Positions 10,061-21,634 of a stretch of 23,899 nucleotides of DNA are shown in pieces. The DNA comes from a virus, in the IMG/VR virus record IMGVR_UViG_3300037341_000030, positions 1 through 23,899 of that record; one strand, written 5' to 3'. A model generated the notes under the pieces. It did not search any database, was not told where the DNA came from, and was given only the letters and a program-made list of their open reading frames with translations. Every line of letters begins with the position of its first letter. The stretch's first letter is position 1. Both the position numbers and the translations under genes were made by a program.

Positions 10061-10195
10061 TTACTCCTCTCCAAACATATCCAGTTGTCGCGGCCTGTTC
10101 TGCTCCTCGGTATCGCACACGAGCGCGTGTATGCTGTCGCTCTCTAGCGTCCGTAGCACGTCCAGTGCATCGCCGTGGTACAGTTGTGTAATCAT
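10061..10195 (-). CDS. 44-aa remnant of a second DNA methyltransferase
   Basis: ATG at 10195 overlaps the C5-methyltransferase stop (ATGA) with GGAGG six bases upstream. The first 28 residues (LYHGDALDVLRTLESDSIHA, then LVCD) match the opening of N4-cytosine/N6-adenine methyltransferases, usually '..GDaL.vLr.Lpd.Sv...vTDPPY'. The catalytic DPPY stretch is missing: after VCD the chain goes straight to TEEQNRPRQLDMFGEE, which resembles a methyltransferase C-terminus. An in-frame internal deletion of most of the gene is the simplest explanation. The product cannot be an active enzyme. Confidence 0.6.
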   Translation of the reverse strand: MITQLYHGDALDVLRTLESDSIHALVCDTEEQNRPRQLDMFGEE

Positions 10196-11136
10196 TGCGC
10201 CTCCATTACCCGCTGCATCAAAAGCGGCGGCACGGCATTACCGATAATCCTGCACGCCAGAGCATTGCGCTCCGGCAGTTCGTACCAGTCAGGGAACGAT
10301 TGAAAACGCGCCAGCGCACGCGGCGTCATTTTCACGACGCGGCCTTGCGCCAACACCGCCCGCGTCGCGTGTCGAGCACCCGTCTGTGCCTTGACCGCAA
10401 ACGCAGGCGTGTGACCTATTATGCGCGTGCAGGTTGTGCCATTGGTGTTGGCTTGCCCGTCCAGCAGCACACTCTCACGCACATCCGCAGGCAGGCGCGC
10501 CAGTTGCCACGGCGCGAACTCGCTATCCGGCAGTGTGTCTATGATGTCCTGTATCGCCTCATGCCATCCCACCCACGGCCACAGACCGCCGAACATATCA
10601 TCGCGCCCGCCCTGGCAATGTGTTGCAACAGGCCGCACCACGCGCCCGTCACGGCGTGCCACCAGGATGAGACGGCGGCGCGTCTGCGGCACGCCGTAGT
10701 CGGCTGCGTTCAGATGCCACCATTGCACGTCATAGCGCAGCGCACGCAATGCCTGCACAATCAGCGCAAACGACACACTTTCGCGATATCCATAGACCTG
10801 CTCCAGACTAAACACAGGCGGCTGCTGTTCCTGGATTGCGCGCACCGTGCCGCGTGCCATCTCGATATCGAGTTCGGTTTCGGTGGCATCGTCTTTAGCA
10901 ACGCTGAAATTTGGACACGGCGGACTTGCGTGTAGCCAGGCCACACGCGGCAGCGCGCTATAATCCACATCCTGCACAGGCGCTACAATCATCTGTGTGT
11001 CAGGCAGGTTGCGCGTGTGCCATGCGGCTATGGCTGCGTCATACTCGACTGCCCACAGCGGCGTATAGCCTGCCTGTAGCGCGCCGATATCAGCACCGCC
11101 GCCGCCGCTAAAGAGCGAAGCAAATGTACCCATCAT
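10192..11136 (-). CDS. C5-cytosine DNA methyltransferase
   Basis: 314 aa from the first of two ATGs (11136), with GGAGGGG seven bases upstream. Motifs in order: I SLFSGGGGADIGALQAGY (SAM binding), IV ASPPCPNFS with the catalytic Cys (PCP where PCQ is usual), VI LEQVYGY (LEQV for the common ENV), VIII QTRRRLILVARR, a variable region of about 100 residues as target recognition domain, IX-like FQSFPDWYELP, and X IIGNAVPP. It methylates carbon 5 of cytosine in a short target, probably to protect phage DNA from host restriction. No partner nuclease is adjacent. Next to it is the relic of a second methyltransferase. Confidence 0.92.
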   Translation of the reverse strand: MMGTFASLFSGGGGADIGALQAGYTPLWAVEYDAAIAAWHTRNLPDTQMIVAPVQDVDYSALPRVAWLHASPPCPNFSVAKDDATETELDIEMARGTVRAIQEQQPPVFSLEQVYGYRESVSFALIVQALRALRYDVQWWHLNAADYGVPQTRRRLILVARRDGRVVRPVATHCQGGRDDMFGGLWPWVGWHEAIQDIIDTLPDSEFAPWQLARLPADVRESVLLDGQANTNGTTCTRIIGHTPAFAVKAQTGARHATRAVLAQGRVVKMTPRALARFQSFPDWYELPERNALACRIIGNAVPPLLMQRVMEAQ

Positions 11137-11468: not shown

Positions 11469-11698
11469 GCATTTCCCTCCACTTGCCTGCGTAGCCGCTC
11501 CACGGCTTGCGGTAGACTGTACCACGGCGGCGCGTCGTCGTGATCTAGCGTCCAGTATGACGCCGTAGGAACATCGATGCCGAGCGCGTCTGACAGGCGC
11601 TCCAATTCAACGTACAGGGCGCGGCGCTGTTCGGCCCGCGCTGCCAGTTCGGGCTGGTCGGGGGAGTGGCGTTGTGTGGTAAGTTTGCGACGTGCCAT
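11465..11698 (-). CDS. 77-aa basic protein of unknown function
   Basis: ATG at 11698 directly after the TAG of the replication gene, with GGAGGG nine bases upstream. The N-terminus is basic (MARRKLTTQRHS), followed by a helix (ELAARAEQRRALYVELERLS) and a YWTLDHDDAPPWYSLP stretch ending in another basic helix. The stop overlaps the next gene by ATGA. No family is recognised. A nucleic-acid-binding accessory role is possible because of charge and location, but unproven. Confidence 0.6.
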   Translation of the reverse strand: MARRKLTTQRHSPDQPELAARAEQRRALYVELERLSDALGIDVPTASYWTLDHDDAPPWYSLPQAVERLRRQVEGNA

Positions 11699-13876
11699 CT
11701 AATAGCCCTCCAGAGATTGATACCCGCTGCTGCTCTCATGCAGCCATTGTGCAACCTGATTACTCGCATCCGCCCGACTTGCAAATGGTTCGGGCCAAAT
11801 GACATGGCTTTGATCATCCGTTAACCAGTACTGCCCATTGTTGATTGTGATGCGGAGTGTGCCGCTTTCGTGTGCACTGAGTACATCCCCGATGTATTCT
11901 TTTTGCGATTTTTCGCCTATAGAATAGCAGGCAGAGTAGGCAGAGTTGCCAAAAAATGCCGTTTTATCGCTTTCTGATGCGTCGCCAACTCTGCCACCCC
12001 CCCAGGCAGAGTTAGGCAGAGTTGAGGCTCCATAGGCAGAGTGCCTACTCTGCCTACTATTCCCACTCTGCCCACTCTGCCTACTCTGCCTGCAAATTTT
12101 CTCATATTTACCATAACCCACTTTGCGAACAAGCAAGTTGTCGGCAAGGTGACGCAGTTGCTTCTGGACGGCATTGACGGTGGTTTCGAGTTCGGCGGCG
12201 ATGTCTTTGGGTGTGTACTGTACGCCTTCCTGCATTGCCTCTAAAACGCGCTGGCGCTCGCTCGTAATGGCATATGCAGCTGCGTCGCCTTCGATACGAT
12301 GTTCGGTTGCATAATCATCCCAGGAGAGCGCCAGTTCCTCATCGTCCACGTCGCGCCCTCGGATATGCAGCACCATGTCATCAGAGCCAGGCACGCGTCC
12401 GATAATCCACATCGTTGCGACGCCGCCCGTCAGACCGGTAGAACCGCTGATCTCATCGAACACATCATCGGCTTTCGCCTTGCGGGTGTGATGGATAGCA
12501 ATGATCGTAATGCGGTGGCGCTCTGCAAACTCGTTCAATGGCTTGACGGCATTATAATCATCATCGTAGGGATTGGCGTTCTTGTCTCGTGGTGCCCTGA
12601 TGTTCTGGAGGATGTCCACAACAATGAGCGCGGTTTTCGGATGATGTTGCATCCATTCCTCAAGCATCTGAATGCCCGCCTCGCCGCGTTCCCATTGTGT
12701 AAAAAGATGGAAGTTATCAGGCCATTCAAGGGCATCCCCAAGCATTGCCCCGACGCGGCTCTTCATGCGGCGTTGATTGCTCTCCAGATCGAGGTAGAGT
12801 ACTTCGCCGGATCGTGTGTCCAGATTATCAAACGCCTTCCGCTGCTGCATTGCCACAGCCAGCGATAGACCAAGCGCCAGCCAACTCTTTTTGGTCTTCG
12901 GTTTCCCAGCCATCAGGCAGCAGCCTTCCGGCAACAGGCCCGGCACAATCCACTGCAACTCGTCAAACTCTTTGCGACGCAGTGCAAACAGAGTAATACC
13001 CTCTTGCATCCATGATGGGGTATACACCGTGCCTGCACGAGCACATCTTTCGAGTGCCTGCAACGTCTCTTCGGGGTTGTCGCGGCAGAAGTCGGCAAGG
13101 TCATAACCGAAATCATTACCCAGGTCAATCGCTGTGCCCTTCACCTGCTCAGCGATTTGGGGTGCAATCCTGCGGCCTTTATCGTCGCTGTCGAGTGCTA
13201 CATATACCCGACCCCGCCAGCGATCCTGTAGCTCTTCTATAAGGTGCTGTGGTATCTTTTTCTCACCACCTGGCACACAAATGGCGGGCACACCGTAATG
13301 GTGTGCCACCACGGTAGACGCCTCACCATTGCAGATGATCAGGCAGTCGAGTTGCATACTGATCGCCACGCCAAGTCCGTACCAGCACGGTTTCCAGCCC
13401 TTGTCGTGATCGTATTTCAGCCCGGCTTTCTCTTCATCCAGATATCGATATCGGATGCCCGTCTGTGTCGCAATAACCAGTGCCTTATGGCCGCGCCGCC
13501 GGGTTTCTTTCCATCCGGCGCGGCTAAAAACTTGCTTACTCACACCGTGCTTTGTGGCGTAGTCTTCGAGCGAGGTGTACGCCGGTTTCGGTGCGTATGT
13601 GGCGCCCTGACTAATCCCGGCGCGCTCCCAGATGTTGCCCGATGGGTGCGTGTCGTTGGGTGTCTGGATATTCAGGCGTTCAGCTAACTCTCGCTGACTG
13701 CCGCCTTCCTCGTCTTTATGGTCATACCAGACCAGTAAGCCATCATCGTTTTCCGACACGGCGAGCGTGCCCCCATCAGCATCAGGCCGCCACGGTGTGT
13801 TGTAGCGGCCTTCGCCGTGCTGTGTATTCTGGTATGGTTCGAGTGCCTGCAAGATAGCGGTTTTTGTGTCGTGCAT
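11699..13876 (-). CDS. Replication protein: Toprim domain plus RepA-type (RecA-fold) ATPase
   Basis: 725 aa from the ATG at 13876, just past the helicase stop (TGATATG). Residues about 1-110 form an N-terminal region (GRYNTPWRPDADGGTLAV, LLVWYDHKDEEGG). A Toprim domain spans about 190-265 (LIICNGEASTVVAHHYGVPA with the catalytic Glu; VYVALDSDDKGRR with the DxD). A RecA-fold ATPase spans about 310-480: Walker A GKPKTKKSW, Walker B ALIVVDIL and the IIAIHHTRKAK sensor. A winged-helix-like part follows (TPKDIAAELETTVNAVQKQL), then a repeat-coded linker at about 596-649 and a small C-terminal domain. The layout fits a phage primase/helicase-loader type replication initiator. Whether it primes is not certain because no zinc finger is seen. 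Confidence 0.82.
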   Translation of the reverse strand: MHDTKTAILQALEPYQNTQHGEGRYNTPWRPDADGGTLAVSENDDGLLVWYDHKDEEGGSQRELAERLNIQTPNDTHPSGNIWERAGISQGATYAPKPAYTSLEDYATKHGVSKQVFSRAGWKETRRRGHKALVIATQTGIRYRYLDEEKAGLKYDHDKGWKPCWYGLGVAISMQLDCLIICNGEASTVVAHHYGVPAICVPGGEKKIPQHLIEELQDRWRGRVYVALDSDDKGRRIAPQIAEQVKGTAIDLGNDFGYDLADFCRDNPEETLQALERCARAGTVYTPSWMQEGITLFALRRKEFDELQWIVPGLLPEGCCLMAGKPKTKKSWLALGLSLAVAMQQRKAFDNLDTRSGEVLYLDLESNQRRMKSRVGAMLGDALEWPDNFHLFTQWERGEAGIQMLEEWMQHHPKTALIVVDILQNIRAPRDKNANPYDDDYNAVKPLNEFAERHRITIIAIHHTRKAKADDVFDEISGSTGLTGGVATMWIIGRVPGSDDMVLHIRGRDVDDEELALSWDDYATEHRIEGDAAAYAITSERQRVLEAMQEGVQYTPKDIAAELETTVNAVQKQLRHLADNLLVRKVGYGKYEKICRQSRQSGQSGNSRQSRHSAYGASTLPNSAWGGGRVGDASESDKTAFFGNSAYSACYSIGEKSQKEYIGDVLSAHESGTLRITINNGQYWLTDDQSHVIWPEPFASRADASNQVAQWLHESSSGYQSLEGY
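11930..12090. repeat. Cluster of ten GGCAGAGT/ACTCTGCC 8-mers: iteron-like, candidate origin
   Basis: Exact copies of GGCAGAGT start at 11930, 11939, 12005, 12015 and 12035. Exact ACTCTGCC copies start at 11988, 12047, 12065, 12074 and 12083, with a decayed copy at 12056. The last group has a strict 9-bp period (12047, 12056, 12065, 12074, 12083). The copies at 12035 and 12047 form a perfect dyad with a 4-nt spacer. AT-rich tracts flank the cluster (11951-11970, 12091-12115). The repeats lie inside the replication gene and encode a low-complexity (R/G)(Q/N)S linker, much like the iterons within phage lambda O. Confidence 0.8.
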
Positions 13877-20680: not shown

Positions 20681-20874
20681 GTGACCGCGCCCGCGCATAC
20701 CGGGTGCGCCATCCAGAGCGCGTCAAGGAGGCCCAACGTCGCTGGCGAGAGCGCAACCGCGAACAGCGCCGCGAATACAGCCGCGAGTATAAGCGACGGA
20801 CGCAGAAAGACTACCGAGCGCGCCGCAAGGTTGCGCTGTGGAATGAGATGATAGGAGTGTACGAGCGTGAATGA
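20677..20874 (+). CDS. 65-aa highly basic helical protein
   Basis: ATG at 20677 overlaps the previous stop. Arg makes up nearly a third of the chain, with clustered RxYRxxHPERVKEAQRRW, RERNREQRREYSREYKRR and RTQKDYRARRKV segments. This helical pattern resembles the basic leader regions of phage HNH endonucleases ('YR..n.ek....qr.Y...n'), but no HNH residues follow. A nucleic-acid-binding role is likely from charge. Its last codons overlap the next gene by 8 bases. Confidence 0.65.
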   Translation: MSDRARAYRVRHPERVKEAQRRWRERNREQRREYSREYKRRTQKDYRARRKVALWNEMIGVYERE

Positions 20875-21634
20875 CTATAGAACGAACGTCCTGAGTTATG
20901 GCGGCGGCGTGCAATCCGTCGCTATGTGTGTTCTGGTAGCACGCGGCGTCCTGGAGCGGCCCGACTACATCGTCTGCGCCGACACCGGGCGCGAGGCTGC
21001 GTCAACATGGGACTATCTCACAGAGGTGATGCAACCGTTCTTGGAGCGCTACGGGCTACACGTGGACATCGCGCCGCACGACCTGAGCACCGTTGACCTG
21101 TACAGCCACCAGGGTGATGTGCTTATGCCGATGCACACAAGCACGGGGCAACTGCGGACGTATTGCAGTGTGGAGTGGAAAAAGCGACCGGTTAATCGCT
21201 GGCTACGAGCGCAAGGCGTGCAGCAGGCTGTCAAGTGGATTGGGTTCAGCCTGGATGAGCGACGCCGCGCCACGCTCCAGGATAGTGAGAAGTGGATTAG
21301 CATCCGCTATCCCTTGCTCGAACTCAACCTGACCCGACAGGATTGTCTAAACATTATCCAGGCAGAAGGCTTGCCAGAGCCGCCGAAGTCGGCGTGCTGG
21401 ATGTGTCCGCATCGGAGGAATAGCGAGTGGCGCCACATCCGCGACAACTACCCAGAAGACTGGGCAGCGGCGATCAAACTAGACGAAGAATTGAGAGACG
21501 CCGCGCCATTGGATACGCTTGACGACGACCGCTTGTGGTTGCACCGTGACCGCGTGCCGCTGGCAGAAGCCGACATCGACACACCCGATAAAGGAGAGAA
21601 CCGGCAGTGCGGTATGGGGATGTGTTTTGTATAG
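20867..21634 (+). CDS. PAPS reductase / DndC-type ATP-pyrophosphatase family protein
   Basis: 255 aa from a GTG at 20867, with AGGAG upstream. The pyrophosphatase loop is VLSYGGGVQSVA (SxGGGxxS). Next come YIVCADTGREAASTWDYL, a TYCS Cys, KWIGFSLDERRRA, a SACWMCPHRR pair, and a C-terminal CGMGMC. The Cys set could bind an iron-sulfur cluster. Members activate a substrate by adenylation and reduce or transfer sulfur; in phages they are sometimes tied to nucleic-acid modification. Its substrate here is unknown. It is followed by a PD-(D/E)XK-like nuclease and a zinc ribbon, which suggests a nucleic-acid role rather than sulfate assimilation. Confidence 0.85.
   Translation: MNDYRTNVLSYGGGVQSVAMCVLVARGVLERPDYIVCADTGREAASTWDYLTEVMQPFLERYGLHVDIAPHDLSTVDLYSHQGDVLMPMHTSTGQLRTYCSVEWKKRPVNRWLRAQGVQQAVKWIGFSLDERRRATLQDSEKWISIRYPLLELNLTRQDCLNIIQAEGLPEPPKSACWMCPHRRNSEWRHIRDNYPEDWAAAIKLDEELRDAAPLDTLDDDRLWLHRDRVPLAEADIDTPDKGENRQCGMGMCFV

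Follow-up and report, generated by a model that had tools for sequence, protein, structure and literature searches.

An array of short repeats within a phage primase-helicase gene as a probable replication origin, and its coupling to the winged helix of the encoded protein

In phage lambda the origin repeats lie within the coding sequence of the initiator O itself, and O, like TP901-1 ORF13 and Tuc2009 Rep, is a replisome organiser and not a helicase. The helicase of the P4 alpha protein belongs to SF3, and in RSF1010 the primase is RepB' and the origin is bound by RepC. The initiators TP901-1 ORF13 and Tuc2009 Rep bind repeats inside their own genes, and RSF1010 has a RepA helicase, a separate primase and the origin-binding RepC (PMC8965321). 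In SaPI Rep and in Cch2 of SCC(mec) a C-terminal domain binds iterons located directly downstream of the helicase gene (in Cch2, three 5-nt iterons in a 23-bp direct-repeat region), and loading of two hexamers has been proposed for both proteins (PMC7581432). P4 alpha unites a Toprim-type primase, a helicase and an origin-binding domain in one protein, and the Prim-Pol replicase ORF904 of Sulfolobus pRN1 combines primase, helicase and a C-terminal winged helix, its essential origin element being a stem-loop without iterons just downstream of the gene (PMC4234260). The origin (oriV) of plasmid RA3 was mapped to the 3' end of the gene of its initiator RepB (PMC9455977). A pair of replication initiators with exchanged winged helix-turn-helix (wHTH) domains has been described in Gordonia phages, in passages that make no mention of origin sites (PMC10684548). 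Neither 9-bp arrays next to AAA_25-wHTH proteins nor a recognition code such as the one described below turned up in our search of the open-access literature, most subscription papers and bioRxiv preprints being outside the scope of the search.

Here we analysed a 23.9-kb stretch of DNA (23,899 nt; "the window" hereafter means this whole stretch), the IMG/VR virus record IMGVR_UViG_3300037341_000030, whose gene content includes a terminase, a portal protein, an endolysin, a UvrD-like helicase and a RecT-like protein. Also present are a C5 cytosine methyltransferase (10192-11136, minus strand) and a phosphoadenosine phosphosulfate reductase-like gene (20867-21634, plus strand), and scanning the window for tRNAs and Rfam families gave no match. 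The product of the initiator gene P0001 (Table 1) resembles replicative primase-helicases (T7 gp4, Twinkle and RSF1010 RepA) in Foldseek and profile comparisons, and Pfam, PHROG and Foldseek matches assign its helicase to the AAA_25/DnaB/T7 gp4/RepA class. It scores above the curated cut-off for AAA_25 (97.7 bits against 27), conserves the P-loop GKPKTKKSW and has RSF1010 RepA (1g8y) as its closest solved helicase by sequence profile. A search of PDB sequences with P0001 as single query returned no match, and no O-type initiator family was present among its Pfam or PHROG matches.

The original prediction had placed iteron-like repeats within the gene of a Toprim/RepA-type protein, a description borne out by the AAA_25 match (E = 9e-28), the Toprim_2 match being weak. 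It had reported ten exact 8-mers in both orientations, and the ten exact copies of GGCAGAGT/ACTCTGCC indeed all fall within 11930-12090, with none elsewhere in the 23.9 kb, where chance would provide 0.75 copies and none of 100 shuffles reached ten. Five units keep the strict 9-bp register that had been claimed (11930/11939 and 12065/12074/12083), the units at 12047 and 12065 are 18 bp apart with a degenerate unit in between, and the perfect dyad (12034-12055) is real. Flanking AT-rich stretches are present as described but modest, with 60-67% AT at 11880-11929 and 63% at 12080-12129, the spacer near 11947-11987 having about 50-57%. All ten units lie inside the initiator ORF (11699-13876), in the 3' part of the gene, and the array begins 8 nt past the wHTH codons. 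The array also contains a C7 tract. Runs of G or of C are enriched in the 200 bp past the wHTH in viral and plasmid relatives, both for runs of at least 5 (33/80 against 314/2603 control windows) and of at least 6 (18/80 against 61/2603; near-duplicates included in both counts), and these runs could be a priming or melting feature.

Table 1. Positions of the initiator gene, its domains and the elements of the repeat array in the window
Feature	Position	Strand	Basis
Initiator gene P0001, 725 aa: Toprim-like, AAA_25 helicase, wHTH, array-encoded linker, C-terminal domain	11699..13876	-	
Toprim_2-like segment, residues 192-249	13130..13303	-	20 bits, slightly below curated cut-off; Foldseek match to T7 primase-helicase
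AAA_25/RepA-type helicase domain, residues 297-468	12473..12988	-	E = 9e-28; profile match to RSF1010 RepA
wHTH, residues 535-593; array binding inferred	12098..12274	-	AF2 model, weak HTH matches; residue-base covariation in relatives
Recognition helix, residues 567-579; K572 codon at 12161-12163	12140..12178	-	DSSP of AF2 model
Folded C-terminal domain, residues 658-718, after array-encoded linker	11723..11905	-	AF2 model
Array of ten GGCAGAGT units; plus strand at 11930, 11939, 12005, 12015, 12035; minus strand at 11988, 12047, 12065, 12074, 12083	11930..12090	both	
Perfect dyad AGGCAGAGT-gcct-ACTCTGCCT	12034..12055		sequence
AT-rich flank, candidate strand-opening element (inferred)	11890..11927		60-67% AT in 30-bp windows; well conserved in L012
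C7 tract (G7 on coding strand) inside array	11996..12002	+	tract of at least 5 kept in L012
Suppressed synonymous change, codons 594-665: array, spacer and AT-rich flank	11882..12097	-	pairwise comparison

Comparison of seven pairs of relatives (about 89-95% identical in protein) showed that synonymous change in codons 594-665 amounts to 4-12%, compared with 23-44% over the remainder of the gene (Fisher P from 3e-4 to 5e-11), a 3- to 9-fold suppression. The repeats encode RQS/GQS in one orientation and NSAYSA in the other, and the linker to which they belong (residues 597-654) is predicted by AlphaFold2 to be disordered (pLDDT about 27-32) with folded domains on either side, in line with the original view of a tolerant, low-complexity linker. 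Because synonymous change is suppressed, the linker is disordered and the position of the array is kept even past the stop codon in relatives, the repeats act as DNA and not as protein.

All close relatives of the window gene keep the array. Intact replication genes without the repeats, which had been put forward as the observation that would refute the prediction, were accordingly not found among them, although some distant homologs do show no array. One relative, at locus L012, encodes a protein 79-80% identical to that of the window overall and about 95% identical in the AAA domain but only 57-59% in the wHTH, and in its array GTCACTCT replaces GGCAGAGT in all units and both orientations, with the same general layout and with the spacer DNA between units largely retained. 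Loci L071 and L090 behave in the same way (AAA 94% and wHTH 56% identical; unit TGTCACC changed to TGCAACC), and L060/L066 and L061/L072/L073 likewise show a switch of unit with a diverged wHTH, whereas pairs with wHTH identities of 69-73% retain similar units. Among the close relatives the layout is therefore kept while the unit switches in concert with the wHTH. A scan for GGCAGAGTNGGCAGAGT returned 45 stretches, mostly single matches, and besides the known loci only L130 (10371-10725) looked relevant: it is a truncated distant homolog with a GGCAGAGT array as in the window and a wHTH 39% identical. L102 and L129, considered as other users of the window's unit, look like repetitive sequence and were discarded.

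In two large subfamilies the coupling between wHTH and unit can be traced to a single residue and a single base. In relatives with TGTCxC units, the residue equivalent to K572, which lies within the recognition helix (567-579), is Q when x is A and K/R when x is C; in those with GxTAAC units, x = G goes with K/R, A with Q and C with Y/F. The rule was fixed in writing before further loci were scored, and it fits all nine new non-redundant loci that had not been used to find it and 50 of the 52 loci pooled (Fisher P = 2e-12; exceptions L179 and L180). Phylogenetically independent pairs on a tree built from the AAA domain alone gave 9-10 cases with the code and none against (P about 0.004, range 0.002-0.008). 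The Kitasatospora sister pair L165/L166 differs at both residue and base, and so does the Amycolatopsis pair L182/L183, for which branch support is weak. Such covariation would be hard to explain unless the helix contacts the covarying base, and because the residue predicts the base in two subfamilies the wHTH very probably binds the array, a statement made from sequence and without a binding assay. The whole-array Mantel test was significant but confounded in both directions, and we therefore put the weight on the near-identical pairs and on the residue test; once the wHTH is controlled for, a correlation of unit similarity with the AAA domain is also present (partial Mantel 0.18, P = 0.003). 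The code fails to explain the window's own unit, whose subfamily lies outside both groups: the window and L012 share K572 but differ in unit, and in L130 the window's unit occurs together with M572. L130 and the window have N568 and Q573 in common, and these two residues are candidates for setting the window's unit.

The survey took in about 150 distant homologs. An AAA_25+wHTH alignment used as query retrieved 79 viral loci, homologs were found in plasmid and phage records (C. bescii pATHE01, a Tsukamurella plasmid, the S. suis element phi-SsuZKB4_rum and others), and scanning genomes with an actinobacterial-type alignment yielded 80 loci, in Actinomycetota, Alphaproteobacteria, Spirochaetes, Clostridia, Vampirovibrio and Acidobacteria; the genome scan with P0001 as single query found no match. 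Many of the homologs on plasmids, the Streptococcus element and other phages have arrays of 9-bp period with lineage-specific units. An 8-mer occurs at least four times in the 400 bp past the wHTH in 35 of 75 loci, some of them near-duplicates, against 62 of 4272 control windows. A looser periodicity score (60/78 against 332/1194) has a high background in GC-rich genomes, and we therefore quote the strict triplet test, which demands three units spaced by 8-10 bp and a further three in inverted orientation: it was met by 27/80 viral or plasmid and 18/78 genome loci against 2/1690 and 0/1454 control windows (pooled, 45/158 against 2/3144). Neighbours of the same orientation stand 9 bp apart 196 times, the next commonest distance being 8 bp (35 times), and since the 9-bp step dominates in coding (71/87) as well as non-coding arrays (47/67) it is not a codon effect. 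In 35 non-redundant relatives the array starts at a median of 24 nt past the wHTH codons, and it lies inside the ORF in 17, spans the stop codon in nine and follows it in eight (one unknown). Several relatives have no array near the wHTH, and one clade, with no array beside the wHTH, has clusters that are weak at most and lie about 2 kb downstream of the gene, so that the arrangement is common and not universal. These distant clusters of repeated 8-mers (ACGTGTAT, TGTAAACA, AGTACACA, TGTACACA; loci L039, L040, L042, L043 and L045) are possibly a relocated site.

The N-terminal primase also varies among relatives, being Toprim-like in the window and L048, Prim-Pol in pATHE01, L016 and L091, RepB-primase-like below the cut-off in L046, and absent in short forms. 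In C. bescii pATHE01 no other Rep or initiator is evident among the annotated genes. Recurrent IMG/VR contigs of about 10-12 kb carrying the initiator stand behind L239, L240, L245-L248 and L284-L286, and may be small integrative elements or phage satellites and not full phages. Taking these results together, we lean towards regarding the array as an origin cassette fused to the wHTH in a widespread family of mobile-element initiators with interchangeable primases, in which the wHTH codons are followed by 9-bp sites, lineages have repeatedly switched wHTH and site word together, a natural code links one helix residue to one base, and many initiator-origin pairs are probably orthogonal.

As for the function of the array, computation demonstrates selection at the DNA level, a conserved array position, concerted change of the units and coupling between unit and wHTH. 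We consider it likely that the units of the array are bound by the C-terminal winged helix of the very protein that the surrounding gene encodes, and that the array is, most likely, the replication origin of the phage. The original prediction of origin-type iterons in an initiator gene is in this sense supported by selection, layout and code; origin activity itself is the best inference from them, there being no replication, binding or marker-frequency data. Under the mechanism that we propose, copies of the primase-helicase would dock via their wHTHs on 9-bp-spaced units in opposing orientations, and docking would load RepA/T7-gp4-like hexamers at the locus, which by inference might open the neighbouring AT-rich DNA and unwind outward in bidirectional firing while the Toprim domain primes synthesis. 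GC skew is uninformative on the origin: it has no switch at 12 kb, and its sign reverses near 20 kb, at the point where the genes change direction.

Binding sites by themselves are no proof of origin function, and the wHTH could instead bind the array for gene regulation, through autorepression or control of a downstream gene. Winged helices are common in repressors, and there are weak profile matches to MarR/ArsR-type regulators. However, the array lies about 1.8 kb from the gene start, at its 3' end, the next minus-strand ORF begins at 11698, directly after the initiator gene, leaving no intergenic promoter region, and the wHTH forms one polypeptide with primase and helicase domains, all of which make regulation an unlikely reading. 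That the array serves as a partition (centromere-like) or incompatibility site, used by the initiator or by another protein, we hold to be very unlikely: arrays of direct repeats to which small DNA-binding proteins bind are a typical feature of centromeres, and L018 has a ParB gene close to its homolog, but the window proteins scanned included none recognisable as ParA/ParB-like and the covarying partner is a wHTH fused to a helicase. The inverted array might also form a hairpin in single-stranded DNA or mRNA, like the stem-loop origin of pRN1, and the region 11900-12110 of the window does form a much stronger fold than shuffled sequence (z about -10 for both DNA and RNA). This strong fold follows from the inversion of the units; complementarity of the bases lying between the cores over 45 loci is 0.51 in hairpin register against 0.56 out of register, and the arrays detected in L142, L145, L150, L152, L155, L173, L175, L176 and L178 have a single orientation, so we rejected the hairpin as a shared function and see little chance of it here. 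A functionless expansion of simple repeats in a tolerant linker, to which the low-complexity and predicted disorder of the encoded residues would point, is hardly tenable, being contradicted by the constraint on synonymous sites, the joint change of L012 units of both orientations, the persistence of arrays outside the ORF and the residue-base code.

The array, as a probable binding site and origin, points to a system of origin recognition in many uncultivated phages, plasmids and integrated elements. Their proteins carry merely the annotation "AAA family ATPase", and their origins would become readable from the sequence. With site word and recognition helix switching repeatedly, and with a residue-base code that also held on loci that had played no part in its discovery, the joint change of initiator and origin specificity becomes directly testable, and orthogonal replicons for laboratory use suggest themselves.

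Placing the locus among the known systems, the window initiator differs from RA3 RepB, whose repeats are also different and longer, and it differs from RSF1010 RepA/RepB'/RepC in that helicase, primase and inferred site binding are fused in one polypeptide. It shares with pRN1 ORF904 the combination of primase, helicase and C-terminal winged helix, the helicase class of ORF904 being another, and with P4 alpha a Toprim-like domain together with a wHTH; unlike in P4 alpha, the helicase is of RecA fold and not SF3, and the array stands beside the wHTH codons within the gene. As in SaPI Rep and Cch2, a DNA-binding domain lies C-terminal to the helicase core and short repeats directly 3' of its codons, but the core is a RecA-fold AAA_25/RepA-type helicase in contrast to SaPI Rep and the MCM-like Cch2 helicases, and in the window's family the array can lie inside the ORF with units repeating at 9 bp. 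With TP901-1, Tuc2009 and lambda the window has in common that the repeats are inside the initiator's own coding sequence, so that the comparison to lambda-type phages in the original prediction holds in this respect and not for lambda O as the closest model. Because the window protein is itself a helicase, the closest working models are SaPI Rep, SCC Cch2, P4 alpha and TP901-1/Tuc2009, and not lambda O.
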